Below are positions 41,989 to 62,931 of a stretch of DNA of 64,000 nucleotides, one piece after another. The notes beneath the pieces are model-generated. The model ran no database searches and was not told the DNA's origin. It saw only the letters and a program-made list of their open reading frames with translations. A program made the position numbers and the translations under genes. The stretch covers positions 1 to 64,000 of the forward strand of contig CANLLN010000026.1 in assembly GCA_947491945.1 (NCBI GenBank). Direction: 5' to 3'. The stretch's first letter is position 1. Every line of letters starts with the position of its first letter. The stretch is from an uncultured Carboxylicivirga sp. Its GTDB lineage: Bacteria > Bacteroidota > Bacteroidia > Bacteroidales > Marinilabiliaceae.

Positions 41989-42019
41989 TTAATATGTACT
42001 TATATATGTTTGTATATCC

Positions 42020-42052: not shown

Positions 42053-42094
42053 AAATATTCTGCTCAAAAAAGCACGAATATCAGACCCAAGGCA

Positions 42095-42529
42095 CTAGTT
42101 AATAACAATGGCAAATACAAAGCCCTCGCTTTTATTGCCTGTTTTATCCTCCACGGTAAAAGTCACCTCGTATTCGCCCGACATGATTTCCATGGGTATG
42201 GCTTCTCCAAAGAGTTGCTGACCTGACATTTCCATGCGCTTACCCGCCAAAGGAATGACTTCTTCAGCCGTCCAGGGTGTGTCCCAGCCTTTTAGACCTG
42301 AAACATTGGCGATGGATACATGCAGCTGCGACAGTTCGCGGTCGTCTTCAAATACGGCATCGCATATTAAAGATTGTCCCCGCTGATAAACAGCTGCCTC
42401 GGCAGGTGCTGTAAAGCTGGCCTGCGGTGCACTTGTATCTGCCGGATCGTCATCGTCGGAGCAACTCACTACCAACAGGCCCGACAATACCACCAGCAGC
42501 ACGCCTATTTTCGATATATACTTCTTCAT
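42095..42529 (-). CDS. DUF4625-type lipoprotein, cassette B
   Basis: Using the ATG at 42529 this is a 144-residue lipoprotein (KKYISKIGVLLVVLSGLLVV, Cys 23) with a Ser-Asp-rich stretch after the Cys that can favour surface export. The remainder is an Ig-like sandwich (APQASFTAPAEAAVYQRGQS, and MEIMSGEYEVTFTVEDKTGN) resembling DUF4625. The ATG at 42595 would add 22 residues that read as conserved leader, not protein. It lies 79 bp after the giant protease gene. Its product is nearly identical to the cassette A copy. Function is unknown. Confidence 0.85.
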   Translation of the reverse strand: MKKYISKIGVLLVVLSGLLVVSCSDDDDPADTSAPQASFTAPAEAAVYQRGQSLICDAVFEDDRELSQLHVSIANVSGLKGWDTPWTAEEVIPLAGKRMEMSGQQLFGEAIPMEIMSGEYEVTFTVEDKTGNKSEGFVFAIVIN

Positions 42530-42608
42530 TTGTCTAATTTTATTGTTTCGTGGTAAAATCATGGGCGGCACTATCACCGCACCATGATTTCTCACTATTA
42601 AAACCTTA

Positions 42609-45600
42609 TTACTTCTTAATCAACTTGTAAACATTAGTACGATCGCCAAAGTATATCTCAACAAGATAAACTCCATTGGGCAGATCCTCAATGTCGATGC
42701 GCTGCTTTTGAGCTGCACTCCAAGGATACTCTCCATCTTTTACAAGTGCACCGGTAGCATTCATCAGGCGCACGCGCACATTCGCTTCAGCTACATTGCC
42801 TTCAACATAGACAAAAGAACTGGCCGGGTTCGGATAAACCGACCATTGCTTGTTATCATGATCGTTAAGTCCGGTTCGATGCTCTATTTTAACATTGAAA
42901 ACCTGCTCGGCAACAGCGCCTTGCTCATCGCTGGCAATTACGGTAACATCAATACCTTCTTTGCTTACCATCAAAGGCTCCAACTTTAACTTATTGCCTG
43001 ATAAGAAAACAGCCAGTGTTTCGTTGTCCGCACTCATCACCTCATAAACAAGAGCTTCACCATCAGGATCAGCAAAATGAGTGTCCAGATCAATATCAAC
43101 GATGCCACTCTCCCATATCAGCAAATGATCTTCAATGGCAACACTGATCATTGGTACGCGGTTCACATTAATCACTTCCACCGGGATTTCAATTACGGAG
43201 GCATTGTCATGCGCATCAATTCCAGTTATTGAAATTACCTGTGTGCCGGCCGATGCATAATCGGGTGAATACGTAACGGTAATCACATTGTCAGCCACAC
43301 TCAGTGATACTAGCTCATTGGCATCTGTCAGGCCAAATGTGCAGTCATCACCTTCATAATCACTAGCCATCACATCAAAATTCAAAATAGCATTCTCCTC
43401 CACAGAAAGAACAGCTTCCGGATCAAAAGTAAATGACGGGCCTTGATTGATGCGCAGATTAAGTGCATGTTTCACAATGGGATTCAGCGGATCATTGCTC
43501 TCAAGCACTAATTGCGCTTCATTATCGATTTCCAGAACACCTGTAGCATTAAATTCCATATCGACACTTATAGACTGTCCGGCCTCAACCTGTCCGGCAG
43601 CGGGGCTTAACAATTTCACCCAGGCCGATGTGCTGTGCTCTTTCTCTAAGGCCTTTATCATCCATGCGTAATTTTGCAACTCGGGCACCTGCACCACATC
43701 CAGCCATCCGTTATCGGCCGGGAAGTAATAACGACCTGCCACAGCCTCGTCCAGCAGAGCTGTTCCTTGCGGGAAATCAGCCATAAATGGATAGGCCACT
43801 ACCACATAAAACTTCTCATAAGGATAAAACTGTTGTGGCTCGTCCAGCTCAATGGTAACAAAGCTGCCACCATCGACGGGTTGGCTTACCTTATGCGTAT
43901 AACTTTGCTCGGTTAACAGCTGTGCATCTTCAAAGCCGTTACCTCCGGCCATCACGTACACCGTAATGTCTGACGAAAGTATGTCTTTGGGATTGTACCA
44001 GGTTTTTACGTGCGACAGTCTGAATCCTTCGGCAGGAGCGGTAAACACAATACCGGGAGTAAAGGCCTGACCCGCACCATAACCGGTAAAAATATCAGGT
44101 GCAGTGCGGGTATCGTATTCCAGCGTGGCATTAAAGCCATCGGTAGCCGGAGCATAGGTTCCAGCCGGGGCTGCTGTATTGCTAAGGCTTTGCACTTGTG
44201 TGGAACCACCTTGCATCATTTTTTCCTGAGCGACGGACTCCCCCCCGCGTCTGTATCGGATAGCCAAGGAATAATCCAATGGCCCTTGTCCTCCAGCATT
44301 TGAAAGCAGCACACTGCGCGTTTCCTTGTGCGTTGGTGTATTGGCAATAATACTAATGACCTCGCCCTCGATAGCGGCTGATGGTGCTTTTGCAACGCTT
44401 GCTCTGATCGGGATCTTATAATCACCATCAGGCAGATTACCCACAAAAACCAACTCAGAACTTATTGTTGACACATCACCACTTGGCGTCAGACAAATCC
44501 TTAACTTTTTAGACTCACCAGGCTTCAGTTCAAAAGGATCCCAAGGACTAAATGACGGTGGCACATTCACCCACATCCACATACCACGCATATTAATATA
44601 CCATTCAACTGTTAGCTCGGTATTATCCGTAAGGGTAAGTGAAGAAAAATTAAGGTTAGCACGTCCGGTGTTAAGCACCTCAAACTCCTGATAATAGGAT
44701 TTGGGTGATAACCAACCCCAGTCATCCAATGCCTCATAGGCCATTACTTCACCAAAGACAACTTCTTGCGGTGCTGCCATGGCCGGCTCGCCACTCACTG
44801 TTAAATTAACCGGAATGTGCGCTGTGGGTTGATCAGGCACATTGGTAATCAGCTTCACATCGCCCGAATAAACACCATCATTCAAGTAGCTGGCATCCAT
44901 GGCAATGTTAAAAGTAGTGGAACCTTTGGCCGGAATCACTTTCTTTTCAGCTGGTGTCAGCACAATTGCGAAATCATTCTTTAGGAAAGTCTGATAACCG
45001 GAAACCATTACCCCTTCGGTACCGTCATGGTTTTCCAGACCAACAACTCCCAGATGCAGCCAAGTATTAAAATCAGCGGCTTTATACTGATACTTAATAA
45101 CACCATTGGTGTAAATAATAGCCTGGAAGCTATAGTTTTGACCCAAACCATACATATCGTAACATTCGTTCCACTGCACAACAATACGATCCTCAAAAAA
45201 CTTATGATACACACCTGATACCTCGGCTTCTTCGGGGGTTCTTTCATATTGATGAATAGCAAAGTAAGGAGCTATTAAACTATTAGGCTCACCTGTTGAA
45301 GGCAACATATCGGGCAGCATATACGGCGGGTTAATCCTTGGCTCCACAGTTGTTATCAAACCCTGCCAACTAATCCATAAGGTGCTGGTTGGCTTATTAA
45401 ACAACTCAATTTCAAAGGGTAGCTCAACGGCTTTCCATAGCTCCTGATTACCGTAATACCAGCTCATCGAAGTCTTTGTTCCCTCTTTGACAATATCCTC
45501 CCAGTTAAACTCGGCACCCTCCATATCATCAGAAGTTGAATAAGAATAGGTAAAGTCCGGCAAAGTCAAGGGAGCAACAGACTCATCCAAATACAACCAA

Positions 45601-48600
45601 TCGTTACCACTAATCAGTAGCTCCAATGGATTATCACCAGGGTTACTGATAGTGATTGGTTGAACCACTTTGCTGCCGGCCTCCACCATTTCATCGAAGG
45701 CGGCTACATCTATTTCTATTTGAGGCGCAGCAATCACCTCCCCACTAAGCTGCACGGTAAAAACTGTACCATCAGCCAAAGTAATAGTCAACACATCCTT
45801 ATAGGAACTAATAGCATCCGTAAACATACGAATAGGAATGTAGGCCGATGTTTTGGCCTTTAGTAACTTAGGATACACATCCTCAATACTAAAGCCGCTA
45901 CCGCCCAGTGTCACCGAGCTGATCTCCACATCTTTAGTCCCGGTGTTGACCAATGTCAATAGTTGCTCGGCCTGTGCTCCTACAAATTGAGTACCAAAAT
46001 CCACTATTTCACGATCGATGGCCGGCTTGGCTTCTCCACCTCCTGTAATATTCACACTTACCTTAAACGGTGTGGCCGACGAAAAGGGATCGTTACTCAA
46101 AACGGAGATATTCTGATAAAGAGATCCTTCACAAACATTGGCCGTATTAATGATCAAATCAATTTTTTCCGATTCGCCCGGCGCTATATAGCCCGTTGTT
46201 TTTGAAACGGATTCAACCAGCGATGCACCCGGATGCTTCACCTTAAAAATGGTTTCGTTACTTTGTAATATTCCATAACGGTCGTACCCGTATAGAAAGT
46301 CGGCACCACTAATACGGAACTCATCCTTATAATGTGGGTCACCAACACCAATAAGCGCCTGATAAGTATCCAGGAAGTCCATGTTTTCAACATCCAAATA
46401 TCTGAAATCAATGTCTCCATTACTATACAAAACAATCTGGAAAGTACCGGAATAATAAGTAGGTACTTCCTCGAAGAATACATTTGTGTATTGGATAATC
46501 ACGCGATCCGACTCCTTTTTATAATGTATCTGGCCTTGACGGTTAATATCAAAAGGCCATCCCATAGCTGATATGGCGCCCTTGGGTCCACAGCGTGGAT
46601 CAAAATTCGGTGGCGAACAGTTTCCAAAAGGCCCTTCTTTATCGAAGGTAAGCATACCATATCGCGTGATGAACAAGCGACTCACTAACTGATCGTAGAA
46701 AGGAAATTCAAAGCCCAGCTCAAGCTCTTTATAGGTATGACTTGGGTGAATATTCTTAAAGAACTCAGATATATCTGTTCCTGTACTGCTAATATCGTCC
46801 CATTCGAAAGGCACAACAGTATTTCCATTGATATTGCTCTCGTAAGTGTATCCAAACTTATGACGCAGGCTATCCTGGCGTGTCAAAGGTGCCTCATCAA
46901 AGGCCGGTATTTTGTACTGTAAAGGATATTCACCCGTATTGCTTATAGTAAATGATGCCTCAGCCGTTTGACCAATATGCATATCCGGCAAGACATGCTG
47001 GGCAGGAGAAAGCGCTATCTTGGCAGGCTTGCTGCCCACTCCAAACAGTCGTATCGCATGGCTGTTGCCTTTATCGTCACTGAGTGTCAATACGGCATTA
47101 TCATTTCCCGTTCCATCGGGTGTGTACTTCACCTTCACGTATCCATAGTCACGGGCATTAATCTTCCAATCACTTTGAATTACTTCAAACTGCGCGTCTG
47201 ACACTACCGTTTCAATACCATAGAAGTTACCATAACCAAAATTCGTTACCGGAATTATCAGTGTTTTGCTTAAGCCATGAAACACGCTACCAAAGTCAAT
47301 GACATCCACATTTCGTAAATCCGGCTTTTGGTCGGCTACGGTAAGATTCACATCAAGACGTGTCTCTTTTTCGTCCGAGTCATTTGCTTTAATAAGCACA
47401 TTGCCGGTATAGCTGCCGTTAATCAGTTGAGTGGCATCAACCTTCAACTGCACCGTTTGGCTTTGGTTAGCAGAAACGTTGCCCGACTGCGGCATTAAAG
47501 TGATGTACTCGCCCACATATTTACTGTTACTAACGGCCTTGGTAGACCAGGTGTAATAATCATCAATCACACTACTCAGTGGCAACCAGTTGGCGCCCAT
47601 ATCAAAGCTCATAAAGCTATAATCAGAAAAATGGGGTTCCAGTTCCACTATGGCACCCAGGCAATAAGTATTACCGGTGGGCACATGAAACACAATCCAG
47701 AAGGTTTCGCCATAAGGAAAATACAACTGCTCATTGAGCTGCACCTTGCACTCATAAGGATCGGCCGAATAACTTTCTACCTCCTGAGCATACACCAGGT
47801 CAGCAGCGGGCAAGTCCTCACCTTTATACACTTCAATAACCATAGGGCCTGTTTCGGGGATGTGACGCACAAACATCTCCACATCAGTAAGGTTAAAACC
47901 CTCCTTTCGATCTACAAAAAACTTAGTGGCCGATGAATTTGTCAAGGTCTCATCGCTATCTCCAATAATATAAAGATTCCCCTCACCGTACTTAATATCA
48001 TCTCTAAAACCGCTTAACTCAACCGATTTAACTGTTGCCTTTTTCGATAGTGACTGAGCCGGTACTTTTCGTACATTGGGCTTTAGCATTGTCGCCGAGG
48101 CACCCGACTTGGGATAATTTATTTGCGAGGAATACGAATCCAGGAAATGATATTTGTGACGCATGATGCCTTCCCACTTCAGTAATCCCTCATCGAGGTT
48201 TTCTATTTCGAAGCTGCCCTGTGTTACATAGTTATTGGCCAGATTCAGGTCAAAACTAAGCGGAGCTGTGGGGATATTAATATCGGGTCCGGCATTGGTT
48301 TGCCCTGATACATTGTCCGAAAGCGCCGATTTATTGGCCCATCGATCCATAGAACGCACCGCAAAATAATAAGTTGTTAATGGCTCCAGACTACTTATCT
48401 CGGCCTGCATGTAGGTACCGGCCACTTCATTATTGTTAACACTCAGAAGTTGTGCCTGTGCCAGGTTGGCTTCGGTGATGGCCTCAGTATGATAGTAAAG
48501 CTGGAAAACGGAAGGGTAGCTATCATCGCCATCCGCCGGCACTGTCCACGATAGTGTGGCAAAATCCTGCGCAATACCTTCTAAAGAAAGATCTGTCACC

Positions 48601-50126
48601 GCATCCGGTGTCAGTCCTTCATTCTTTTTAAGCACCATAGCGGCGTCAATATACCCCACACCCAGCTTACCGGCAAAATCGGGATTCAATTGATCCACAT
48701 CATGAGTTGAACTCTCAAGGTACAAACGTAACTCTTCCGCTGTAAAATCAGAACCTCCGTGCTGCGACACTGCTAAAGCAGCAATACCTGACACATGTGG
48801 ACAAGCCATGGACGTGCCCTGCATATAGCCGTAGGAATTATTAGGTGTAGTACTTAACACGCCAGCCACCGGGCTCAACATCAAATCACCACCAGGAGCC
48901 GAAATATCCACCCAGCTACCGTGGTTAGAGTAGTGGGTAATCTTATTTTCCGGGCCTAGCGCTGCCACACAAAAAGTTTTATCGTAATAACCGGGGTACA
49001 TCTCGGCATCCACAAAGTCGTTACCGGCAGCAAAAATAACAATACCACCTTTCATGGGACTGCCCTCATACATACCCGCTTCGGCCACAAAATAGTCGAT
49101 GGCATCCAATACAGTTTGCTCATACACACCGGCCGCCTTATATCCCCATGAATTTTGAGAAATAACGGCACCGTTATCGGCACCATAAACAATGGCCTGC
49201 GCGAAACCACCGGCGCCACCGGCAGAAGTAAATACCTGCGATGACATCAGACGGGCGCCGTCGTTGTTGCCGGTACCACCAGCCACACCGGCCACGCCTA
49301 TACCGTTGTTATTAACAGCGGCCACGGTACCGGCCACGTGGGTACCATGGTCGTGTGCAGTGATGGTTCCTGTTACATCGGCAAAGTTAAAACCATGTAT
49401 ATCGTCAATATAACCATTGCCATCATCATCTTCACCGGCTACCCCATTCAACTCTGCTGTGTTAACCCACATATTGGCCTCCAGATCGGCATGTTCCACA
49501 TCAATACCACCGTCCACAACGGATACAATAACATTGGGTTGTCCGCTCTGCGTCTTCCAGGCCTCAAAAGCATTAATGTCGGCACCTGCCACACTTGGCT
49601 CCAGGCTGCCATCATTATTGTAGTGCCACTGATCAGCTAAAAACTGATCATCAAATGGTAAGTTGGCGGTACTTTTTAATACAGAGCCTTCAAAGGGAAG
49701 CACCTGACCTTTTATATGTGATTTCTCGTAGATAGGCTCTACAAGATCTACTTCATTACTTGCTTGGTAGGCAGAAACAGCCTGAAGCGGGCTCACTGAC
49801 ATATCAAAAGTAACTTCATACCACAGGTCGAGTCCATGCTTGCGGTGTTTGGCATCATGCTTGGCTGAATAGGGGAATACGCGCTTCATATTTTTTGCCA
49901 GCACTTGCTTACTGGCCGCATCAAACGTGGTGATGCCCGTGGACAAGACACCGGCACTGCGGGTGGTTTGCATTGTTTTGAGTGTAGCTGAGAGTGAGCG
50001 TTTAAACTTGACTCTCACAACACCTTCGTGCATACCCTTCACCGAGACCTGTGCCATCATACTGCTTAACAGCAGCAGACTGAGTCCCAAGAGTATGCCT
50101 CTTTTGAAATGTAGTGACTTCATCAT
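42609..50126 (-). CDS. Giant S8 subtilisin-like secreted protease, cassette B
   Basis: This 2505-residue protein has a signal peptide (GILLGLSLLLLSSMMAQ), an N-terminal propeptide-like region to about 190, and an S8 catalytic domain at about 195-500 with Asp205 (VVDGGIDVEHADL), His260 (DHGTHVAGTV), oxyanion Asn369 and Ser439 (QGTSMACPHVSG). A calcium-type loop DDDGNGYIDD follows the Asp. Next come a fibronectin type III domain (about 505-610), several ASH/choice-of-anchor-D-like modules, two internal modules with an FPFY-type strand followed by a W/Y-G-hydrophobic turn, and cadherin-like repeats. The C-terminus is a T9SS sorting domain (VYPNPASSFVYVEG to VYKLIKK). It is exported and probably surface-attached. 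Paralogue of the protease at 53.1-60.8 kb. Confidence 0.93.
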   Translation of the reverse strand: MMKSLHFKRGILLGLSLLLLSSMMAQVSVKGMHEGVVRVKFKRSLSATLKTMQTTRSAGVLSTGITTFDAASKQVLAKNMKRVFPYSAKHDAKHRKHGLDLWYEVTFDMSVSPLQAVSAYQASNEVDLVEPIYEKSHIKGQVLPFEGSVLKSTANLPFDDQFLADQWHYNNDGSLEPSVAGADINAFEAWKTQSGQPNVIVSVVDGGIDVEHADLEANMWVNTAELNGVAGEDDDGNGYIDDIHGFNFADVTGTITAHDHGTHVAGTVAAVNNNGIGVAGVAGGTGNNDGARLMSSQVFTSAGGAGGFAQAIVYGADNGAVISQNSWGYKAAGVYEQTVLDAIDYFVAEAGMYEGSPMKGGIVIFAAGNDFVDAEMYPGYYDKTFCVAALGPENKITHYSNHGSWVDISAPGGDLMLSPVAGVLSTTPNNSYGYMQGTSMACPHVSGIAALAVSQHGGSDFTAEELRLYLESSTHDVDQLNPDFAGKLGVGYIDAAMVLKKNEGLTPDAVTDLSLEGIAQDFATLSWTVPADGDDSYPSVFQLYYHTEAITEANLAQAQLLSVNNNEVAGTYMQAEISSLEPLTTYYFAVRSMDRWANKSALSDNVSGQTNAGPDINIPTAPLSFDLNLANNYVTQGSFEIENLDEGLLKWEGIMRHKYHFLDSYSSQINYPKSGASATMLKPNVRKVPAQSLSKKATVKSVELSGFRDDIKYGEGNLYIIGDSDETLTNSSATKFFVDRKEGFNLTDVEMFVRHIPETGPMVIEVYKGEDLPAADLVYAQEVESYSADPYECKVQLNEQLYFPYGETFWIVFHVPTGNTYCLGAIVELEPHFSDYSFMSFDMGANWLPLSSVIDDYYTWSTKAVSNSKYVGEYITLMPQSGNVSANQSQTVQLKVDATQLINGSYTGNVLIKANDSDEKETRLDVNLTVADQKPDLRNVDVIDFGSVFHGLSKTLIIPVTNFGYGNFYGIETVVSDAQFEVIQSDWKINARDYGYVKVKYTPDGTGNDNAVLTLSDDKGNSHAIRLFGVGSKPAKIALSPAQHVLPDMHIGQTAEASFTISNTGEYPLQYKIPAFDEAPLTRQDSLRHKFGYTYESNINGNTVVPFEWDDISSTGTDISEFFKNIHPSHTYKELELGFEFPFYDQLVSRLFITRYGMLTFDKEGPFGNCSPPNFDPRCGPKGAISAMGWPFDINRQGQIHYKKESDRVIIQYTNVFFEEVPTYYSGTFQIVLYSNGDIDFRYLDVENMDFLDTYQALIGVGDPHYKDEFRISGADFLYGYDRYGILQSNETIFKVKHPGASLVESVSKTTGYIAPGESEKIDLIINTANVCEGSLYQNISVLSNDPFSSATPFKVSVNITGGGEAKPAIDREIVDFGTQFVGAQAEQLLTLVNTGTKDVEISSVTLGGSGFSIEDVYPKLLKAKTSAYIPIRMFTDAISSYKDVLTITLADGTVFTVQLSGEVIAAPQIEIDVAAFDEMVEAGSKVVQPITISNPGDNPLELLISGNDWLYLDESVAPLTLPDFTYSYSTSDDMEGAEFNWEDIVKEGTKTSMSWYYGNQELWKAVELPFEIELFNKPTSTLWISWQGLITTVEPRINPPYMLPDMLPSTGEPNSLIAPYFAIHQYERTPEEAEVSGVYHKFFEDRIVVQWNECYDMYGLGQNYSFQAIIYTNGVIKYQYKAADFNTWLHLGVVGLENHDGTEGVMVSGYQTFLKNDFAIVLTPAEKKVIPAKGSTTFNIAMDASYLNDGVYSGDVKLITNVPDQPTAHIPVNLTVSGEPAMAAPQEVVFGEVMAYEALDDWGWLSPKSYYQEFEVLNTGRANLNFSSLTLTDNTELTVEWYINMRGMWMWVNVPPSFSPWDPFELKPGESKKLRICLTPSGDVSTISSELVFVGNLPDGDYKIPIRASVAKAPSAAIEGEVISIIANTPTHKETRSVLLSNAGGQGPLDYSLAIRYRRGGESVAQEKMMQGGSTQVQSLSNTAAPAGTYAPATDGFNATLEYDTRTAPDIFTGYGAGQAFTPGIVFTAPAEGFRLSHVKTWYNPKDILSSDITVYVMAGGNGFEDAQLLTEQSYTHKVSQPVDGGSFVTIELDEPQQFYPYEKFYVVVAYPFMADFPQGTALLDEAVAGRYYFPADNGWLDVVQVPELQNYAWMIKALEKEHSTSAWVKLLSPAAGQVEAGQSISVDMEFNATGVLEIDNEAQLVLESNDPLNPIVKHALNLRINQGPSFTFDPEAVLSVEENAILNFDVMASDYEGDDCTFGLTDANELVSLSVADNVITVTYSPDYASAGTQVISITGIDAHDNASVIEIPVEVINVNRVPMISVAIEDHLLIWESGIVDIDLDTHFADPDGEALVYEVMSADNETLAVFLSGNKLKLEPLMVSKEGIDVTVIASDEQGAVAEQVFNVKIEHRTGLNDHDNKQWSVYPNPASSFVYVEGNVAEANVRVRLMNATGALVKDGEYPWSAAQKQRIDIEDLPNGVYLVEIYFGDRTNVYKLIKK

Positions 50127-50186
50127 AGATTTTAAGTTAATTGAACAAATATGACTGCTGTCCTCTCGGACATATTATTCTTTGGG

Positions 50187-50324
50187 TTAATTATCTTTTT
50201 TTTGTTGTTTGCCATTTGCTGCCCGACGAGCCTCGATGGCAGTCAATATCTTTTTGAGTGCTTCACTCTCCAGGCGTTTTCGATCGATTAACTGCTTAAT
50301 CTCCCGATCTGATTTGCTCTCCAT
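50187..50324 (-). CDS. Small basic helical protein, cassette B (45 aa)
   Basis: ATG at 50324 to TAA at 50187 encodes 45 residues, mostly a predicted amphipathic helix (EIKQLIDRKRLESEALKKIL) with a Lys/Gln/Asp tail. It lies 60 bp before the protease gene. A homologous frame occupies the same position in cassette A: KQLIDRK...ESEALKKIL aligns with EQLMAEN...RLKALKKLL. Conservation between diverged copies argues that it is a real gene. No signal peptide and no known family. A cytoplasmic role in the cassette is inferred only. Confidence 0.65.
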   Translation of the reverse strand: MESKSDREIKQLIDRKRLESEALKKILTAIEARRAANGKQQKKDN

Positions 50325-50715
50325 ACTCCATTTATAATTTGCTGATTTAAAAAATTGGGTACGCTAATATATTTACAGAGAGATTGTGCAAGAAAAAAAG
50401 CAACTACTTAAAACAACTACAAGCAAACATAAGAAACACTCAAAAGCAGCATATCAACCCTACAATGACACTACTATCAGATACACTAATTTGATTATTA
50501 GATAATTAATTCAGATAAAGAAATGTAAGTGAATCCTAAGTGATGAAGGCATCATTGAGACAGATAAACCAATGAATGGAGTAAGTTTTTAAGTATTAAC
50601 TGTGCAATATATGCCCCTGATAATTTAATCGTAAAAAGAAATATAAACTACTAATAAGCCAGTTTCTTCTTAAAGAAAGTGTGAGAACTGAAGCGAGAAC
50701 AAAATTTAAATTCCT
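50325..50715 (-). promoter_or_regulatory. Regulatory region between regulator and small gene, cassette B
   Basis: The 391-bp AT-rich gap should carry the promoter for the small gene and protease. TATGTTTG on the minus strand (50431-50424) fits the -7 consensus but lacks a good -33 at the right distance. No other gene was seen. Confidence 0.4.
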
Positions 50716-52350: not shown

Positions 52351-52375
52351 TTAACCAATTGTTATAATATGCTTA

Positions 52376-53163: not shown

Positions 53164-56100
53164 AAGGACTGCTCGTCTTCGATCAGCTCTACGAAATACA
53201 CACCCGGCGTTAACTTATTAAGCTTAAGATCGTACTGGCTATGCTCAGCCGCATTCACCACCTCATTGGCAATCACCGTACCACCGACAGTTAACAGGCG
53301 AACCTGCACATCCGACTGCACATCATTACCCCATGACACGGTAACATGTGTGGTTGCCGGATTCGGATACAACATCCACTTACCTTTCTCATTGGCGTCT
53401 AAACCGGTGCGGTTGCGCACAGTCACCGTAAACTCCAGGGTAGCGGCAGCACCGTTTGGATCAGTAGCGGTCAGTGTCACCACCGACTCACCGATACCCA
53501 CCGGATTAAGCATCATCTTATTACCAGCCACAAACACCTCTACAACATTGTTATCTGTATGGCTCATTTCGAAGCTCAGCTGCTCAGCATCCGGATCAGT
53601 AATGTAAGCAGCCAGGTCAATATCAACTACGCCATACTCCATAATCACCTCCTGATCTTCAATGGCCATAAGTACTTCAGGCACACGGTTACTGTTCACC
53701 ACCATAATGCTAAGCGGAATCGTGCTGGCATTGCCAAAGGCGTCAGTAGCCACCAGTTTGCAAGCATAAGTGCCCGCTGCATCGTAACCCGGTTCAAGGG
53801 TAATGGTCATGGTGCCTTCAGCAACCTGAGTACTTACAAACTCCGGTGCATCATTCAGTACCAACTCGTAAGTATCCTGCTCATGATCAATGGCGGAAAT
53901 TTCAAGTGTCTGGGTCTCATTCTCAATCACTGAAATGGCTTTACCATCATAAGTAATTTCAGGAGCACGATTACGCAGCAAATGTAAATTAATCTTCTGA
54001 TGCATATTGAGCGGATCGTTGGACGATACGCTTGCCACCGCATAGTTATCGCCCAGTTCGGCATACGCAGCATTAAAGGCAAAGTCGAGACTCAATGATT
54101 CGCCGGCTTTAACGGTTCCTTCCATATTATTATTGTCGGCCAGCTCAACCCAAAGACCCGTTTTATATTCGGCTTCGATGGCGGCTGTCATCCATCCTTT
54201 TGAGGCGAAATCACTACCAGCCAGATCGCTCCAGTCACTACCGGAAGTATACATGAATCGGCCATCAACAGGATCGCCTGTCTCCACCACCCCTTGTGGA
54301 TACTTAACTGCTGTTGGGTAAGTAAACACCACAAAGAAAGGCTCGTTAGGATAGAAAATCTGTGTTTGATCCAATTCAATAGTCAGGAAGTCACCTATAT
54401 GATCAGCTTCGGTAATCACATGCATATAATCCTGCGAATACAGTGCTTCACACTGCGAAATGTAGGGTGATCCTGCCATGATCGTAACCGTTATTTTCGA
54501 CTCCAACCAATCTTCTGGCGCGTACCAGGTGCGCACATGCGTAAGGTTAAAGCCGTTTTCGGGTGCATAATAACGAGTTGCCGAGTTAAACTGATAAGCA
54601 CCACCAAAGCCCAGCTTTGATTCTGGCTCAACAGCCTCTGAATAAGTCAGTACACGGTTGTAGGTATCGCTATAAGTAGTGGCATTCACCTTGTTACCTG
54701 CCTGGAAGGCTTCTGCCTGCAGTGGCTCAGCAGTAACTGCCTGCATGCTCTGTGCCGCTTCCTTAGCATCGGCTCCGGTGTTACGGGTATAGTCCATCAC
54801 GATGTTATAGTGCAAGTCTGAATTGCCCGCTGTATTATCAATCAAAACACTATGGTTTTCAACCACATTGCCATCTTGGGCATACACACTCAGTAAATCT
54901 TCGCTGATGGCCATCACCGGTGGCAACACAGGTTGAGCAGTAAGGGAAACGGCAATAGCAGGATGGTCAGCCAGATCAGTATTGATGATCAGCTTATCGG
55001 CCAATGCTTCAGGTGCAGTACCTTCGGCATTCATTGTGCCATCCGGCATATACACAGCCTTAAATCTAAGCGTTGATTGTGGCTCCACATAAATAGGCTG
55101 CGTTGTACCGGTCATCCAATCGAAGATGGGCAGGTTGTTCAAATCCATCCACTGCATTACCTTGTTACCCATCCAATCAGTAGCTTCAACGTAAGCTCTT
55201 ATACTCTCATCGAAGGACACGGCACTGTTCAGCTGCAATACTTCCGACAGGTCGAAACCTGTGATTTCAAAGCGTGCCGTTCCTTCGTTTTTCAACTCAA
55301 ACTCCATCTCGTAAGTTTGGTGAGTAGGATCATACATGCCGGCATTGGGATTTTCTACCACCATGGGTGCTCCAAAATCTACACTTGCAGGCGCCACCAA
55401 TTTAGCTTCGCCCGTTACCGTTAGTTCAACAGGCACCTCAACCATCGATGTATTGGGGGTATTGTTCAGTATTTGCAGTACTGAAGAGTAAGAACCAGCA
55501 AACAGCTCTTTGGCATTGATAGTAGCCACAAAGTCGCGCTTGGCACCCGGTGCCACCACATATTTTTCAACCGGTGTATATACTACGGCTAAGTCATCAT
55601 GTATTGTACCTTCTTCGTAAGCAGCAAAAGAAACTCCTTCGGTACCGTCGGCATTTTCTAAACCAACCTGCGAGAATTGCGGTACATTTACTAACCAGGC
55701 ATCGTACCATTCATACTGCATTTTAATGGTACCATTGGCATAAAGGATCACTTGCGACGAGGTAGCATCACTCATACCAAAACCATCGATATATTTCTCA
55801 AACTGCACAATTAGCTTATCCTCAAATACCTGATAATAAATACCAGCATCTTCATACATATAGGTATTCGGTCCGTTCAAACCCCACATTACGGCAATCA
55901 GGTTATTGGGTTCTGCCGTATTAGGAATCAGATCGCCTCCGAATGGATATGGATTGGTATAGGTATTAAAACACAATACACCATTGGCACCAATATTGAC
56001 ACTGTTCTGAGGCGCACCATAGAAATCAAAGGTAAATGGCAATTCAATATTACCGGCCCAATAGCTCTCGGCCAACACCTCGTTAGAAATTTGGATGCCG

Positions 56101-59100
56101 CTCTCACGGATGTCTTCCCAGCGGTACTCCGGCCCGTTTTCATCATCACTGCTAACAACATGGTAGGTGAAGTCCTTAATTGCTGTGCTCTGGGGTGCTA
56201 TCATTTCCTGCACAGTCATCCATGGCGTACCAATGGGTGCTACCTCCAGATTGTTACCACCGTTATTCGTAACCGAGAAAGAAACATCCTTTACAGTACC
56301 CGAGGCTACTGTCTCTGTAATTTCTGCGATATCGAGGTCTATCGTTGGCGCCTCAATCACTTCTGCTTTTAAAGCTACCGTTAACTCTGTGCCATCGCTT
56401 GCCAGTATAGTCACTACATCTTCGTAAATACCTATTTGCGTAGTATTCAAGGTAACATTAAATGGCAACTTACGACCGGGTGTCAGGATCTGTGGTGTTT
56501 CGGCCGCAATGGTAAACACACTGTTGCTATTCTTAACTGAGGTAATATCGGCATCAGCACGTCCACTATTCAGCACCCATAACGGCTGCACTACCTGTGC
56601 CTCCTGGAACACCTTACCAAAATCAAGGGTCGTTTGTGCCAATTCCACTTTTGGCTCTCCGCCTCCGGTAACATTTAAGTCAATTGTGAAAATTCCAGGG
56701 TTATTTTGCGGATCGTTACTCAGTACCGCCAGTTTCTCGCGATGATGCTCCACATTCAGCACTTCGGTTGAGGCTTTAAACGCTACGGTAACCGACTCAC
56801 CCACCTGTACTTTGCCTTTAGGGTTACTTAGTTCGGTAACCAAACCTAAGCCGGGATTCACAAAGCGAACAACCGTTTGATCGCTCACAATCAGATCAGG
56901 CGAATCTATATCGCTAATAAAATAGCCATCATCCTGCTTTTGATCTTCAATAGCGATAAATGCTTTTCTTAAAGCATCACTATTTAACCCACCCAAAGTT
57001 TTGTAAATCAAATCTATGTTTCCATTGCTATGCAACACAATCTGGAAAGTCTGCTCGTGCGGTGTAAATTCACCGGTACCCCAGTCAAAGCCTTCCCATA
57101 TCACTTTATCGTACTGCACTACAAACTTATCGCCAAAGCTCTGGTAGTAGATATTACCCCCGTCATTTAAACGATACTTATTACCCAGAGCCGAGATAAA
57201 GCGGTCGGGGCAATCATCTAGTTTATAGTGCGGAGGCAACACATTAAATACGCTATTCTGATCGAAGGTAATCATACCCCAATCGGTAATGAACAAACTA
57301 TTTTCGCGCTTACCAAAGAAGGGGAAATCAAAATCCAGCTCCACAGGATAATAGAAATAATCTGCGTTAGCATTTTCAGGCACTACCTTTGTTCCGGTCG
57401 CTACAATATCTACCCATTCATAAGCCGGATTGGGCAATGCACCATCTTCGTTAATCTGCGCTGCATAACCAAACAAACAGGTCTTAGGATCCACCTGAAC
57501 ACTCTGATCGAGCTGCACAAATGAAGGAAAGAAGTACTCAAGCGGGTAATTCCCATGGTTGGTAATGGTAAACTCACCACTTACCTCATCGCCGATGTTC
57601 AGGTTATCGAATGAAAGCTCGGCAGGACTGATTTCCATTACCGGTGGCTCGGCCGCCACACCAAACAGATTGAAGGTAAACTCATCACCTTTTCTGTTAT
57701 AAATACGGGCTACGGCATTGGTATTACCGGCAGTAGTAGGATTATAAACTACCTTAAACTGAACACCCGAAAGAGCTGCTATTTGACCCAGATAATTACG
57801 CTTTACGGTAAAGGCAGGATTATCAATCTCAATATAAGCAGAAGAGAAGTTACCCAGACCTATGTTGTCGATGTTAACAGGCATTTCCTTAGTGTTGCCC
57901 AGCACTACACTACCAAAGTCAACAATACTCTCGCCCTGTATCTTATGCGGATGACCGCTTAGCTTTACCTGTGTAGGTACACGCAGCATAGACTCTTCTG
58001 TTTCGTTGGTGTAAACCACAACATTGGACTTGTAAGTACCGTTTACAAGCTGCGACATATCCACACTTACATCAACAGTTGTTGTCTCATTGGAAGGGGT
58101 CTCGCCACTCTCCGGATTGATGCTAATATATTTTTGCTCGGGCTTTAGAGTGCTGACCGGCGTGATGGCCCACACCAGCAGGTTATTATAATACATATCC
58201 TCAAAAAGCGCCCATGTTTCGCCGCCATTAAGGCTCATGTAGCACATCTCAGACAGCTCGGGCTGCATCTCTACACCGGCTCCTATCGGATAACGGTTGC
58301 CTGATGGCACATGTAACACCAGCCAGAAATAGCTTCCCTGCGGGAAATAAAGCTGCTCTTTCAGCTTAATGTTAACAAAATCCCCCCCTTCTGATCCTTC
58401 ATGTTCCTGTGCATAGATAAGCTTTGAATCCAAAATATCAGCACCTTCGCGCACCTCAAATACCAATGGCCCACGTTCCGGGTTGTTACGTACCAAAGCA
58501 TTCAGGTGAGTCATATTAAAACCCTCTTCCTGTGACACATAATAGCGAATGGCAGCTGAGTTGGTATAAGAGGTGTCTTCCTCACCAATATAATACAGTC
58601 CGCTCCACATACTGAAGTAGCTCATCTGATCGGTTGCCGGCTTCTGACGATAGGTATGTATCGGAATATCAAAATTGGCTCCAGTACTTTGTATATTCGC
58701 CTTCCCTGAAAATGCCTGCTGCTTAATTTTTGGATAACGAACATCTGCAATACTGTAAGCATCCATACTTGAAACATGATGGTTCTCAGTAGTCCAGCGC
58801 AACAAACCGGTTCCCACATTCTGAATATTAAAGCTGGCACTTGCTTCCGTTGACTCCGTGGCATCCACCACAAGATTTACGTTTGGCGTAGCTTCGTCAA
58901 TCTGAGCATCAGGCCCTTCGTTGGTTGTTGCACTGAGCTGATTGGAGAAATCGGATTGGTTACCCCAACGGTCGATACTACGCACTGCAAAATAGTATTC
59001 AGTCATGGCCTCAAGGCCTTCCACTTCAAAACTTACTTTTTCACCCACTGCCCAATCATTCTTCAAATTGATGCGACGAGCATATTCCAGAGTTGCAGTG

Positions 59101-60794
59101 CTAATCTCCTTCTTCGAATACAATATCTCAAATTCCCAGGGCTTACCGTCATCTTCATCGGCAGGCACGCTCCATTCCAGCACTGCAAAATCCTGCGCTA
59201 AACCAAGCATGTTTAAATCAGTGATGGCCACAGGTGCCTTGCCTTCGTTATTCTTAAGAGCCAGTACGGCGTCGATGGCACCGGAACCCAGCTTTCCTTT
59301 ATAGGGAGCGTTTCCTTCAATTTGGTAAATATCATTAACCGCTGTAATCAACTGGTTCTTCAATGTAGTATTGGAAAAACCACTATGACCGTGCTGGGAA
59401 ACAACCAAAGCAGCAATACCTGATACATGCGGACAGGCCATGGAAGTACCATCCATATAGCCGTAGGCATTGCCGGCATAACAGCTTAATACCCCGTTTG
59501 AGAAACCAGCCTCCGCTTGGCTATCAGTCATATTGGCATTATCATCAGAGTCGCCACCCGGTGCAGCAAGGTCCACCCAGGTTCCATAGTTGGTATAACC
59601 GGCTCGTTTGTTGCTCGATCCTAAGGCCGACACGGCAATGACCTCTTCGTAACAGCCGGGATAAAACAGCCCCTCGGCGTTGTCGTTACCGGCGGCAAAA
59701 ATAACCACGCCACCCTTCATGGGGCTACCTGCATACGATCCGGCCTCCTGAATGAAATAATCAATGGCATCTAACACAGCTTGTTCCACATAATCAGGAC
59801 GCTTATAGCCCCAGCTATTCTGGGATATAACCGCTCCATTATCAGCAGCATACACAAATGAGGAAGGCAGGTTACCCTGGCTCACACCGCCTAATATTTG
59901 GCAACTCATAATGCGAACTCCATCGTTACTACCAGTACCTCCGGCAACACCCGACACACCAATGCCGTTGTTGTTGATGGCTCCAACCGTACCGGCCACG
60001 TGCGAACCATGGTGTCCGGGCGCAATTTCCCCCATGTTATCACCAAAGTTAAAACCATATATATCGTCTTTATAACCATTGCCATCGTCATCCACATTGG
60101 GCTCGCCATTTAACTCGGCTTCATTCACCCACATGGCCTCGTGCAAATCTTCGTGATTCACATCTACACCCTCATCATGGATGGACACGATCACCTTGTT
60201 GGAGCCTGTGTTGATTTTCCAGGCTTCAAAAGCATTAATATCGGCACCGGGCAAGCCATTGGTCTGTCCTGTGTTATTATAATGCCACTGCATGGGCAGG
60301 TAAGGATCATTAAAAGGCATTTCGCTGGTTGCCTTCAGCACCTGCGACTTATCAAAGGCCTGACTGCTCATGGGATGTATCAACGATATTTCCCGCACGG
60401 GTTCGCAAACATCTACTGAAGCCAGGCTAGCATATGCACTGATAGCACTATGGGTTTTCGCCTCGTCAGTGATTGTTACTTTGTACCACAGATGCAGGCC
60501 ATACTTCTGGTGCTTATCCTCAAATTGCGGCGAATAAGGGAAGATACGCTCCATCTGAACCGCTGAATAACGGCTATTAAGCATATCAATATCGTTCACA
60601 CCGGTGGTCACCGCCTGGCCACCACCTGCACTTTTCACCTGGATGCTTTGCCCCAGGTGGGGCTGCAGCTTAATCCGGAAGGTACCTTGCAGGATACCGT
60701 CTTTATAATTCTGTGCCATACTGCTAAAGCTCAGCAGCAGACCCATTATTATCACCCCTGTGTAACAGGTAAGCGATCGTAGATTTTGTTTCAT
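53139..60794 (-). CDS. Giant S8 subtilisin-like secreted protease, cassette A
   Basis: This 2551-residue protein starts with a signal peptide (CYTGVIIMGLLLSFSSMAQ) and a propeptide-like region. The S8 domain at about 197-515 keeps the triad: Asp207 (SIHDEGVDVNHEDL), His262 (HHGSHVAGTV, with Ser in place of the usual Thr), Asn370 and Ser451 (DGTSMACPHVSG). A calcium-type loop DDDGNGYKDD is present. An Fn3 domain (about 520-630), ASH-like modules, two FPF-strand modules (VELDFDFPFFGKRENSLFIT; IELPFTFDFYGAPQNSVNIG), cadherin-like repeats and a T9SS sorting domain (LYPNPATTHVTVSW to VYKLIKK) follow. The whole architecture matches cassette B, but sequences have diverged. Likely extracellular endopeptidase with unknown target. 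Confidence 0.93.
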   Translation of the reverse strand: MKQNLRSLTCYTGVIIMGLLLSFSSMAQNYKDGILQGTFRIKLQPHLGQSIQVKSAGGGQAVTTGVNDIDMLNSRYSAVQMERIFPYSPQFEDKHQKYGLHLWYKVTITDEAKTHSAISAYASLASVDVCEPVREISLIHPMSSQAFDKSQVLKATSEMPFNDPYLPMQWHYNNTGQTNGLPGADINAFEAWKINTGSNKVIVSIHDEGVDVNHEDLHEAMWVNEAELNGEPNVDDDGNGYKDDIYGFNFGDNMGEIAPGHHGSHVAGTVGAINNNGIGVSGVAGGTGSNDGVRIMSCQILGGVSQGNLPSSFVYAADNGAVISQNSWGYKRPDYVEQAVLDAIDYFIQEAGSYAGSPMKGGVVIFAAGNDNAEGLFYPGCYEEVIAVSALGSSNKRAGYTNYGTWVDLAAPGGDSDDNANMTDSQAEAGFSNGVLSCYAGNAYGYMDGTSMACPHVSGIAALVVSQHGHSGFSNTTLKNQLITAVNDIYQIEGNAPYKGKLGSGAIDAVLALKNNEGKAPVAITDLNMLGLAQDFAVLEWSVPADEDDGKPWEFEILYSKKEISTATLEYARRINLKNDWAVGEKVSFEVEGLEAMTEYYFAVRSIDRWGNQSDFSNQLSATTNEGPDAQIDEATPNVNLVVDATESTEASASFNIQNVGTGLLRWTTENHHVSSMDAYSIADVRYPKIKQQAFSGKANIQSTGANFDIPIHTYRQKPATDQMSYFSMWSGLYYIGEEDTSYTNSAAIRYYVSQEEGFNMTHLNALVRNNPERGPLVFEVREGADILDSKLIYAQEHEGSEGGDFVNIKLKEQLYFPQGSYFWLVLHVPSGNRYPIGAGVEMQPELSEMCYMSLNGGETWALFEDMYYNNLLVWAITPVSTLKPEQKYISINPESGETPSNETTTVDVSVDMSQLVNGTYKSNVVVYTNETEESMLRVPTQVKLSGHPHKIQGESIVDFGSVVLGNTKEMPVNIDNIGLGNFSSAYIEIDNPAFTVKRNYLGQIAALSGVQFKVVYNPTTAGNTNAVARIYNRKGDEFTFNLFGVAAEPPVMEISPAELSFDNLNIGDEVSGEFTITNHGNYPLEYFFPSFVQLDQSVQVDPKTCLFGYAAQINEDGALPNPAYEWVDIVATGTKVVPENANADYFYYPVELDFDFPFFGKRENSLFITDWGMITFDQNSVFNVLPPHYKLDDCPDRFISALGNKYRLNDGGNIYYQSFGDKFVVQYDKVIWEGFDWGTGEFTPHEQTFQIVLHSNGNIDLIYKTLGGLNSDALRKAFIAIEDQKQDDGYFISDIDSPDLIVSDQTVVRFVNPGLGLVTELSNPKGKVQVGESVTVAFKASTEVLNVEHHREKLAVLSNDPQNNPGIFTIDLNVTGGGEPKVELAQTTLDFGKVFQEAQVVQPLWVLNSGRADADITSVKNSNSVFTIAAETPQILTPGRKLPFNVTLNTTQIGIYEDVVTILASDGTELTVALKAEVIEAPTIDLDIAEITETVASGTVKDVSFSVTNNGGNNLEVAPIGTPWMTVQEMIAPQSTAIKDFTYHVVSSDDENGPEYRWEDIRESGIQISNEVLAESYWAGNIELPFTFDFYGAPQNSVNIGANGVLCFNTYTNPYPFGGDLIPNTAEPNNLIAVMWGLNGPNTYMYEDAGIYYQVFEDKLIVQFEKYIDGFGMSDATSSQVILYANGTIKMQYEWYDAWLVNVPQFSQVGLENADGTEGVSFAAYEEGTIHDDLAVVYTPVEKYVVAPGAKRDFVATINAKELFAGSYSSVLQILNNTPNTSMVEVPVELTVTGEAKLVAPASVDFGAPMVVENPNAGMYDPTHQTYEMEFELKNEGTARFEITGFDLSEVLQLNSAVSFDESIRAYVEATDWMGNKVMQWMDLNNLPIFDWMTGTTQPIYVEPQSTLRFKAVYMPDGTMNAEGTAPEALADKLIINTDLADHPAIAVSLTAQPVLPPVMAISEDLLSVYAQDGNVVENHSVLIDNTAGNSDLHYNIVMDYTRNTGADAKEAAQSMQAVTAEPLQAEAFQAGNKVNATTYSDTYNRVLTYSEAVEPESKLGFGGAYQFNSATRYYAPENGFNLTHVRTWYAPEDWLESKITVTIMAGSPYISQCEALYSQDYMHVITEADHIGDFLTIELDQTQIFYPNEPFFVVFTYPTAVKYPQGVVETGDPVDGRFMYTSGSDWSDLAGSDFASKGWMTAAIEAEYKTGLWVELADNNNMEGTVKAGESLSLDFAFNAAYAELGDNYAVASVSSNDPLNMHQKINLHLLRNRAPEITYDGKAISVIENETQTLEISAIDHEQDTYELVLNDAPEFVSTQVAEGTMTITLEPGYDAAGTYACKLVATDAFGNASTIPLSIMVVNSNRVPEVLMAIEDQEVIMEYGVVDIDLAAYITDPDAEQLSFEMSHTDNNVVEVFVAGNKMMLNPVGIGESVVTLTATDPNGAAATLEFTVTVRNRTGLDANEKGKWMLYPNPATTHVTVSWGNDVQSDVQVRLLTVGGTVIANEVVNAAEHSQYDLKLNKLTPGVYFVELIEDEQSFVYKLIKK

Positions 60795-60827
60795 AGTCTA
60801 TTTATTTAAGTTAATAATACGAATGTG

Positions 60828-60989
60828 TTATTCTGTTGATCTTGGGGGATTTTTCTTCTCATTCAGTTTGTTGAGTAGTTTTTTTAAGGCTTTCAAACGG
60901 ACTTCATTCTCTGCCATTAACTGCTCAAAATCATGTGTGCTATCATCTCCTTTTATTATTAAAGATGGCTTTAGGGATTTCTTCTTCAC
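60828..60989 (-). CDS. Small basic helical protein, cassette A (53 aa)
   Basis: The frame runs from a GTG at 60989 (MKKKSLKPSLIIKGDDSTHD) to TAA at 60828, 33 bp before the protease gene. The C-terminal half is a Lys-rich helix (EQLMAENEVRLKALKKLL) that aligns with the 45-residue protein at the same place in cassette B. No ATG is available until codon 25, so the start is uncertain. No known family. Paired conservation and position suggest a real gene co-transcribed with the protease. Confidence 0.6.
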   Translation of the reverse strand: MKKKSLKPSLIIKGDDSTHDFEQLMAENEVRLKALKKLLNKLNEKKNPPRSTE

Positions 60990-61287
60990 CTCATTTTCAT
61001 TTACAATTAGTTAGCATTTTGTTTTCGATTTCTATCAAGACAGAATCAAACAGGCGATTTGGATTATGATAGTTAGCAATTTTTAGCACTGCCCTATTCT
61101 GCTCACCTGTAAAACTAATTATCGAAATGCAGCGATTCAATTATACAACCTCAACATAACTGTCACAAAAACACATTTGAATATCTCAAAAATGATACAA
61201 AGACAATATTGAACCACAACAAGCACTGCACAAATAATTTTATAAGTTTGGTTTTAAGCAGATTAACAAAGAGGTAAAAAAGATGCT
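60990..61287 (-). promoter_or_regulatory. Regulatory region between regulator and small gene, cassette A
   Basis: A 298-bp AT-rich gap that should contain the promoter controlled by the cassette A regulator. No TAnnTTTG element, terminator or further gene was recognised. Confidence 0.35.
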
Positions 61288-62931
61288 TTAAAATTGATTC
61301 AGAAAAGCTACAAGACCTGTATCTGTGTTTGTGAGGTTTAATTTTTTACGCAGGCGCGTACGTGCCACCTCAATACTTCGGATCGTTTGATGGGTGATAG
61401 CAGATATTTCTTTGGAACTCATATTTAACCGTAAGAAAGCTGACAACTTCACTTCATTAGGTGTTAAATCGGGAAAATCACTGCGCAAACGCTCATAAAA
61501 ATCGGAGTGTACCTGATTAAATCGCAGCTCAAACTCCTCCCACACATCGTTGTCGAGCGACTGCTGCAAGTCCATCATCACCCCCTGTATTATCTTCTGG
61601 TTTTGCGGCTTGAACTTGCCCAGGTCATTCATAAGGCGCTGTGCCACTTCTTTAATAAGCTCATTTTTACGCACAAGATACATCACATTGGTGGTCAGCT
61701 CCTTCTTTTTTAGATGCAGATCCTGCTCTAGGTGTTCCTTCTCCAGCACCAGATTCTTCTGCTCAAGCTTTATGCGTTTCATACGAGCCCGCGACAATAA
61801 AAAGAGCAACATTAGGTAGGAAACCACAATTAGTAAAGCGGCACCCACCAGATAATGTAGATAACGCTCTTTGCGCTGCTGCTCTTCCCATTGCTGCTGC
61901 CGTTGTTGCATCTGGTAATCGAACTCAATAGACGCACGCTGTTTCTCTGAGTTCTGCAACATCAGGCTATCGTTATACTGATGATAGGTTTGAAAATATT
62001 CCAGACTCCTTTTATAATCGCCCTGTTGCTTAAAAGTCTGATACAGCTTTTGTGCCGTTTCCGAAATTACCAACCAAGCATTAGCTTTCAGTCCCTGTTG
62101 CAAAGATATCTGATAAGCGTCAATGGCCTTTTTACTGTTATCCTCATCTCGATAATAATCACCTAAAAGACAATAGCTGGAGGCCACCCCAGCTAAATCT
62201 CCAATCTCCTCGCGTATATCGATGGACTCTCTGATAAAAGGTAAGGCTTCCTCCCGCCGATTCACTTCAATATATAAATCGCCTATGTTTTTAGTGATAA
62301 CCCCAAGGTGCTCCTTTGCATCTATTTTCCTCGTCATAACCAAGGCTTCCTTATAATACATCAGAGCCTTGGCATTATCGTTCATATCACCATAAACATT
62401 TCCGATATTATTTTTAATGACGATAATGATTTCCACCGACTTGCGCTCGCTACAATCCACCTTACCGGTTTCTACAAGCTCAAGAGCCTTCATAAAAAAG
62501 GACAGTGCCGTATCTGACTCCTCCAAACTGTAATAGATAGCACCAATATTTGCCAGCAACACCACATGCTTATAAGCCTGCTCCTCTTTATCAAGCTCGG
62601 CCAGCTCATCGTTGAGGCATTGCAAAGCCTCATTGAGCTTACCCTGGCGAATCAGCAAATTGGCCAGGAGAAAATTGCCCTTCGACAGCAAATCATTGTA
62701 ACCCTCCTGCTCTGCCAAACTTCTCACCTTCTCAATATAATCATAGCTCTTGATAACGTCACTATAACCAAAGCAATCGGCCAAGGCCAAATACAACTCC
62801 CCCCGCTGCCGCTTATCCTCCTCGTGCACCAGTCGATTCATCAGACTGTCCACACGTTCCTTATCATGCCCAAAGGCACAAAAACACGAAAAGATATTTA
62901 TGGCAAAAAAAAACGTTTTGAGCGCACTCAT
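61288..62931 (-). CDS. TPR/transmembrane/LuxR-HTH regulator, cassette A
   Basis: This 547-residue paralogue of the cassette B regulator has the same order of parts: membrane-targeting N-terminus, TPR array (EEALPFIRESIDIREEIGDL; KKAIDAYQISLQQGLKANAW), a Gln/Arg-rich coiled coil, a transmembrane helix near 358-380 (YLVGAALLIVVSYLMLLFLL), a second coiled coil and a LuxR helix-turn-helix (SKEISAITHQTIRSIEVART). The HTH is the most conserved part between the two copies, so both may recognise similar operators. First gene of cassette A. Confidence 0.9.
   Translation of the reverse strand: MSALKTFFFAINIFSCFCAFGHDKERVDSLMNRLVHEEDKRQRGELYLALADCFGYSDVIKSYDYIEKVRSLAEQEGYNDLLSKGNFLLANLLIRQGKLNEALQCLNDELAELDKEEQAYKHVVLLANIGAIYYSLEESDTALSFFMKALELVETGKVDCSERKSVEIIIVIKNNIGNVYGDMNDNAKALMYYKEALVMTRKIDAKEHLGVITKNIGDLYIEVNRREEALPFIRESIDIREEIGDLAGVASSYCLLGDYYRDEDNSKKAIDAYQISLQQGLKANAWLVISETAQKLYQTFKQQGDYKRSLEYFQTYHQYNDSLMLQNSEKQRASIEFDYQMQQRQQQWEEQQRKERYLHYLVGAALLIVVSYLMLLFLLSRARMKRIKLEQKNLVLEKEHLEQDLHLKKKELTTNVMYLVRKNELIKEVAQRLMNDLGKFKPQNQKIIQGVMMDLQQSLDNDVWEEFELRFNQVHSDFYERLRSDFPDLTPNEVKLSAFLRLNMSSKEISAITHQTIRSIEVARTRLRKKLNLTNTDTGLVAFLNQF

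Follow-up and report, generated by a model that had tools for sequence, protein, structure and literature searches.

In SusCD-linked loci, namely polysaccharide utilisation loci and the locus for RagAB peptide uptake in Porphyromonas gingivalis, a surface enzyme, a surface lipoprotein, SusC, SusD and a local regulator stand together. In P. gingivalis, PorXY-SigP exerts two-component control over the machinery of the type IX secretion system (T9SS) as a whole, and the surface cargo PorA is able to feed back within this system (PMC4800418, PMC7712824). RRNPP pairs, in turn, combine a tetratricopeptide repeat (TPR) regulator with a neighbouring gene for a protein of <100 residues; the published criteria (PMC10075063) include a receptor of 250-500 amino acids (aa), a small protein with a secretion signal (Sec exceptions being named) and an adjacent gene of 10-100 aa. 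Here, we describe a double gene cassette at positions 42095-62931 of the window, by which we mean the whole 64,000-nucleotide stretch analysed (positions 1 to 64,000 of contig CANLLN010000026.1, assembly GCA_947491945.1, from an uncultured Carboxylicivirga sp.). Each cassette contains, in the same order, a regulator, a microprotein, a ~2500-residue S8/T9SS protease and a lipoprotein of the DUF4625 family. We read each cassette, with a probability of roughly 60%, as a locally controlled T9SS cargo operon, put here to extracellular protein digestion, in which the regulator and the microprotein would form a portable control module.

The domains of the cassette proteins are individually known. Genus relatives resemble the SusCD-linked loci in their gene content, but here a giant T9SS-type S8 protease serves as the enzyme, a TPR one-component protein accompanied by a microprotein as the regulator, and the window has no SusC or SusD. 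As in PorXY-SigP control (PMC4800418, PMC7712824), a membrane sensor, an extracytoplasmic function (ECF) sigma factor and the T9SS come together in one regulatory theme, whereas the system in the window pairs a one-component regulator with single cargo genes. RRNPP is the nearest known pairing of a small gene with a TPR regulator that was found, although, measured against the criteria of PMC10075063, the regulator here spans the membrane and the small protein has a conserved core and no export signal. Neither the regulator-microprotein pair nor DUF4625 is described among the matches listed in the open-access PMC literature, at the level of titles and the starts of abstracts.

All eight cassette genes lie on the minus strand, and the initial annotation, which had reported a four-gene order in two adjacent copies of near-equal gene lengths, is confirmed at the coordinates and lengths it gave. 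Regulator A (61288..62931, 547 aa) comprises an N-terminal hydrophobic segment, a TPR array, one transmembrane helix (~361-379), a coiled coil and a C-terminal helix-turn-helix (HTH); regulator B (50716..52350, 544 aa) has the same layout. Microprotein A (60828..60989, 53 aa, GTG start) and microprotein B (50187..50324, 45 aa) belong to one unnamed family with the core A-L/F-K-K-L/I-L, without a Pfam or NCBIfam family, and each is followed by its protease after a gap of 33 or 60 bp. Protease A (53139..60794, 2551 aa) consists of S8_N, S8 (D207/H262/S451), fn3, immunoglobulin-like (Ig)/ASH repeats and a T9SS type A sorting domain, an order that protease B (42609..50126, 2505 aa) shares. Lipoprotein A (52626..53060) and lipoprotein B (42095..42529) are both 144 aa from the ATG. 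Pfam assigned S8_N, S8, HYDIN/ASH Ig-like repeats and Por_Secre_tail to both proteases, TPR to the two regulators and DUF4625 to the two lipoproteins.

The evidence that the cassette is a unit comes from its recurrence. Gene order was read in sixty stretches around DUF4625 matches, from this genome and relatives, and in twenty more around protease or microprotein matches; per-genome counts are lower bounds, since DUF4625 places outnumber the sixty stretches read. Across the genus set of 14 genomes (this one and 13 others), the order regulator-microprotein-protease-lipoprotein occurs in at least nine (G000, G001, G002, G003, G005, G008, G010, G012 and G013), with the regulator in line or divergent and at times an extra 650-800-residue T9SS protein ahead of the lipoprotein. 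The three-gene form regulator-microprotein-protease reaches further, into other families of the order, a single additional genome of the class and one Cytophagales genome (the three genes stand together at L199 of genome G245 and at L119 in Cytophagales). Some clusters combine one regulator and one microprotein with 2-3 proteases (L048-L049, L050-L051, L056-L117 and L116-L045; L048 and L050 look orthologous). An order shared with other species did not come about by chance, and by the criterion set in the initial annotation the proposal of a recurring unit stands: four genes in this genus and three farther afield.

The same stretches place the unit in a larger neighbourhood. Wherever downstream sequence is in view in genus clusters, SusC follows, and SusD where the stretch extends to it, with the window as the exception; SusC/SusD identity was established by Pfam on one representative and by likeness to it in the others, and L098 and L099 end too early to tell. 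More T9SS cargo is often present in these SusC/SusD-bearing loci, and in G010 and G012 the genes that come after the double cassette encode SusC, SusD and a Calx-beta protein. Beside the window cassettes no SusC/SusD pair was found, so that the arrangement typical of a SusCD-type nutrient locus is seen in genus relatives and not in the window. The initial description of the cassette as self-contained was therefore not borne out: the loci of relatives run on into SusC/SusD and often further T9SS cargo, and the window has neither. The surface protease, the CSDDDD lipoprotein and SusC/SusD in genus relatives together suggest a protein-foraging locus, and in this genus the locus would mark a peptide-foraging counterpart of polysaccharide utilisation loci.

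The pairing of regulator and microprotein reaches beyond the protease. A search with the microprotein alone across 393 genomes of the order returned 27 places in 19 genomes (this one included), or 25 foreign places in 18 genomes (L102, L103 and L202-L224). A regulator of the same TPR-membrane-HTH family lies directly upstream in 17 of the 25, or in 15 of 22 once L102, L103 and L202, already rows of the query, are set aside. In the remainder, the regulator is two genes up (L209), the contig ends (L216) or no regulator is adjacent (L102, L203, L208, L215, L220 and L224); the L224 match (G576) is itself an ECF sigma factor and looks false. A giant S8 protease comes next in L202, L206 and L215, and also in L102 and L103, which are cut by contig ends. 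Six places have an ECF sigma factor in this position, assigned by Pfam in L203 and L207 and by likeness to those, not by Pfam, in L204, L205, L208 and L210. Ten other non-sigma downstream proteins were scanned, and Por_Secre_tail scored above the cut-off in seven (L209, L212, L216 at 7411, L218, L219, L220 and L223) and below it in L217; none was seen in L213 and in L216 at 1, both contig-cut. The occurrence of the same regulator and microprotein before quite different genes suggests a movable control switch, and the regulator and microprotein are thus not dedicated to proteases, although a dedicated regulator had first been supposed. Two tandem regulators lie upstream in L204, L205 and L207, and in L205 and L207 genes for an EamA transporter and an S37 peptidase lie downstream.

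Of 57 microproteins tallied (window, L039-L118, L119 and L199-L224), 44 had a regulator no more than 1.2 kb upstream, most within 500 bp, and 55 had a next same-strand gene starting no more than 80 bp past the microprotein end. The tally drops L222 and L224 (frames >200 residues), L121 (identical in sequence to L202) and the S8-selected loci except L119; its members are not independent, as they include close orthologs and were mostly fetched via lipoprotein, protease or microprotein, and its protease labels for L216 (two) and L220 reflect shared Ig domains, with no S8 domain there. As a control, 58 of the 80 S8 loci (L119-L176) were selected by the S8 domain; a regulator (>=100 bits) appeared in L119 and L121 alone, the same two that hold a microprotein. 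Likewise, 27 of 28 protease-free stretches had neither regulator nor microprotein, the exception (L101) having been fetched for its microprotein.

Further, the microprotein diverges in step with the regulator and not with the protease. Over 22 hand-picked loci, using residues 1 to 1300 of the protease and distances uncorrected for phylogeny, the pairwise distances of microprotein and regulator correlated at 0.61 and those of microprotein and protease at 0.50. The partial correlation of regulator and microprotein given the protease was 0.42 (0/2000 permutations as high), and that of protease and microprotein given the regulator was -0.05 (1426/2000 permutations).

The regulator is, by prediction, a membrane one-component protein with an extracytoplasmic sensor, a transmembrane segment and a DNA-binding domain. 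In all 20 aligned regulators (520-565 aa), a hydrophobic segment at the N-terminus is joined further on by a transmembrane stretch, which starts at residue 333-386 and is followed by basic residues; on this basis, the TPR array would lie in the periplasm, with the HTH on the cytoplasmic side. Invariant columns of the alignment cluster in the cytosolic part containing the HTH, which remained below the Pfam cut-off in both window regulators (Sigma70_r4_2 at E 0.076; GerE at E 0.0045). The structural model of regulator A is all helical, with a predicted local distance difference test score (pLDDT) of 77.8, and its TPR array lies nearest the peptide-binding TPRs of LGN/Pins, with Rap and NprR at lower ranks. 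A G/T-rich TGnTGAGGTTTTnT-like motif occurs in many loci ~90-185 bp ahead of the microprotein start (window 60990-61290 and 50325-50625), and outscores crude shuffles.

The microprotein itself appears to be a genuine small protein. Most proteases of this type are immediately preceded by a small frame whose core is shared, and its alignment follows the pattern D-x-x-I-x-x-x-I-x-x-x-x-x-E-N-x-A-L-K-K-L-L. In seven close species pairs, 68.7 synonymous changes over 186 sites and 41.3 non-synonymous changes over 798 sites give a pooled ratio of non-synonymous to synonymous rates (dN/dS) of 0.106, from which we take it to be a protein under purifying selection. A scan of 23 microproteins gave no convincing Pfam family (best E 0.00044, for a family matched by two members), and both window microproteins were without an NCBIfam match. 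They are rich in charge (mean 45% charged residues), and 42 of 43 lack a hydrophobic stretch (no 12 residues above 1.02), the segment chosen for the remaining one extending into a signal peptide. A derivation of the microprotein from the regulator's coiled coil was considered and rejected (profile comparison probability 0.24%). Searching 60 genomes yielded 31 matches at E < 1e-3, all within ten of the 14 genus genomes and G026. In a phylum sample of 395 genomes, the microprotein was found, besides this genome, in one genome (G245, with both profiles), which suggests a family concentrated in this order; L119, the Cytophagales locus, came by another route and carries a microprotein that scores only 16 bits with the first profile.

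On this evidence, we propose a mechanism in which the regulator would sense a periplasmic cue and turn on the operon that starts with the microprotein gene. The cytosolic microprotein would be a partner of the regulator, most probably serving as a feedback element or co-regulator and not as a protease chaperone; its place on the regulator side is indicated by the co-divergence, by the single microprotein per regulator in multi-protease clusters and by the exchangeable downstream genes. On the model of genus relatives, the protease would be exported through the T9SS and cut protein at the surface, the lipoprotein would hold substrate or product, and a neighbouring SusC/SusD pair would import the peptides; as the locus in this genome lacks that pair, peptides would here enter via other transporters. 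A broader proposal, which we advance tentatively and at somewhat less than even odds, is that a portable Bacteroidota module, undescribed among the literature matches listed and made of the membrane-spanning TPR-HTH regulator and the conserved cytosolic microprotein, moves between cargoes and governs the adjoining T9SS surface protein or ECF sigma factor, with the microprotein as the regulator's dedicated partner reporting cargo synthesis or export. If a regulator and microprotein recur ahead of numerous unrelated cargo genes, they would offer a signature by which cargo-specific T9SS control could be searched for, and the microprotein, a small family that nothing in Pfam or NCBIfam matches convincingly, could be tested directly.

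Several observations weigh against a portable control module serving protein digestion, as does the make-up of the co-divergence set given above. In L222 (8141-12082) and L214 (607-915), the microprotein is fused in frame directly ahead of the signal peptide of the downstream surface protein, a position that would suit a role in export or translation; if the broader proposal is true, these fusions would be versions with the reporter built into the cargo. Thirteen of the 57 tallied microproteins have no regulator within 1.2 kb upstream: two are at a contig edge, two have a regulator 4.6-4.9 kb up and three sit in clusters with a single head regulator, which leaves six with no regulator in view (L053, on a short contig, L102, L203, L208, L215 and L220). 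Four genus genomes (G004, G006, G007 and G009) gave no microprotein match, and a third relative of the regulator in this genome (L227, 1132-2865, 577 aa) immediately precedes a SusC gene, and no microprotein was found there. The TGnTGAGGTTTTnT-like motif was an unreliable predictor of held-out loci and was set aside, the best site falling within the top 6% of 300-bp windows in 5 of 21 loci when a locus's own group was left out. Finally, no DUF4625 or SusC/SusD was present in the stretches read at the non-genus protease loci L119, L121/L202, L199 and L206, so the foraging part rests on this genus.

The fusions fit an account in which the microprotein is a cargo-side factor, that is, a leader, chaperone or element resembling an extended signal peptide that aids a very large protein through translation or the Sec/T9SS route. 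This account would also explain the close spacing of the next gene (55 of 57) and the sorting domain in seven of the ten scanned downstream proteins that were neither sigma factors nor S8 proteases. It sits poorly with the six places where the next gene encodes an ECF sigma factor, which is not exported, with the clusters of 2-3 proteases that hold one microprotein and one regulator (L048, L050, L056 and L116), and with co-divergence that follows the regulator; we regard it as unlikely, though worth keeping in view. Far less probable is RRNPP-like signalling, in which a peptide from the small gene would be sensed by the TPR array of the regulator. The two genes do adjoin one another, within 1.2 kb in 44 of 57 cases, and peptide-binding TPR proteins are among the matches to the regulator model, with Rap and NprR ranking lower; such TPR matches are, however, generic, and the pair departs from two of the five criteria published for these systems (PMC10075063), as receptors of 520-565 aa with a transmembrane helix exceed the size range and the microproteins, 42 of 43 without a hydrophobic segment, offer no secretion signal. 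Moreover, the core of the microprotein is kept between paralogs.

The remaining alternatives concern the window copy itself. It could be the remnant of a protein-utilisation locus that has lost SusC/SusD and is now a plain secreted-protease pair without dedicated uptake, given that the orthologous double cassette in G010 and G012 precedes SusC, SusD and a Calx-beta protein where the window has kinase, response-regulator and chemotaxis-receptor genes, and that the best match in this genome to the relatives' SusC is 37% identical. Yet the cassettes show no sign of decay, as every one of the eight genes has an open frame and each catalytic triad is intact, and other SusCD systems could take up the peptides (46 SusC-like matches in the genome); we consider this history improbable, and it would in any case be compatible with a locally controlled cargo operon. 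As for a local tandem duplication without functional meaning, which the side-by-side copies might invite, it is contradicted by the tandem shared with G010 and G012 (protease identity 66-67%) and by the recurrence of the order across the genus and beyond, and we give it almost no weight.

The history of the two cassettes can be followed through these orthologs, which G010 and G012 have complete and G013 in pieces. Within the window, A and B are 33% identical in their regulators, 37% in their proteases, 27% over 30 residues in their microproteins and 97.6% in their lipoproteins (BLASTP). Protease A is 66% identical to protease A of G010/G012 and protease B 67% to their protease B, whereas A and B are 37-38% identical in the window, G010 and G012 alike; thus, the duplication predates these species. 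The sole recent DNA likeness between the cassettes is a 616-column block, 97.1% identical (52549..53163 in copy A and 42018..42633 in copy B, minus strand), which begins in the final codons of each protease (the last 8 in copy A), takes in the spacer and the lipoprotein and stops at a hairpin-like sequence (by eye) past it. The lipoproteins of A and B are 54% identical in G010 and G012 and 97% in the window, and the window lipoproteins are 49-53% identical to both kinds of G010/G012, which argues that the block was recently homogenised in the window. By these comparisons, the cassettes are old paralogs and not two equal copies, their recent likeness being confined to the lipoprotein block, for which recent gene conversion or copying in the window lineage is the simplest account, with conversion as the probable route.

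The exported proteins carry the expected features. Residues D207, H262 and S451, taken, as in subtilisin, to be the catalytic triad, are invariant in 22/22 aligned proteases and mark them as S8 subtilases. All 22 also have a hydrophobic segment at the N-terminus and, with Por_Secre_tail above the cut-off in both window proteases, these two have the signal peptide and tail of T9SS type A cargo, for which export is predicted. They share the catalytic domain and triad with the S8 subtilases deseasin MCP-01 and mirolase, whose matched solved chains have 334 and 353 residues, whereas the window proteases add ~2000 residues with Ig-like repeats and a T9SS tail. As the two share 37% identity, two specificities may be present, as initially suggested; the lipoproteins, however, are nearly identical. 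The mature form of both lipoproteins would begin CSDDDD, that is, a lipobox cysteine and an acidic signal that mark them, by sequence, as surface lipoproteins; this start matches SDDDD, a tested lipoprotein export signal in B. fragilis (PMC5080379). The DUF4625 model built from both window copies has a mean pLDDT of 47.8, too low for use in a fold search. DUF4625 was dropped as a marker of the unit because many of its copies sit in other operons; among these, a recurring order with neighbours of roughly 510, 330, 370, 360 and 390 codons was seen at L069, L072, L079-L081, L083, L085, L088, L090, L094, L096 and L097.

Other features lie around the cassettes or resemble their parts. Right past cassette B, at 36305-41932, the window encodes a histidine kinase, a LuxR-type response regulator, a second response regulator, a 243-aa product and a chemotaxis receptor; homologs of all these except the 243-aa product occupy the interval separating microprotein B from regulator B in L115 (G013), and SusCD in L056-L117 is followed by a kinase and a response regulator. 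A second group of ~2500-aa S8 proteases, with the order SusC-SusD-~480-aa gene-protease and with no regulator or microprotein labelled, occurs at L104, L105, L106-L107, L108, L124 and L125. Elsewhere in the window, 914-1152 and 16088-16328 form an inverted repeat of 240 bp at 73% identity.

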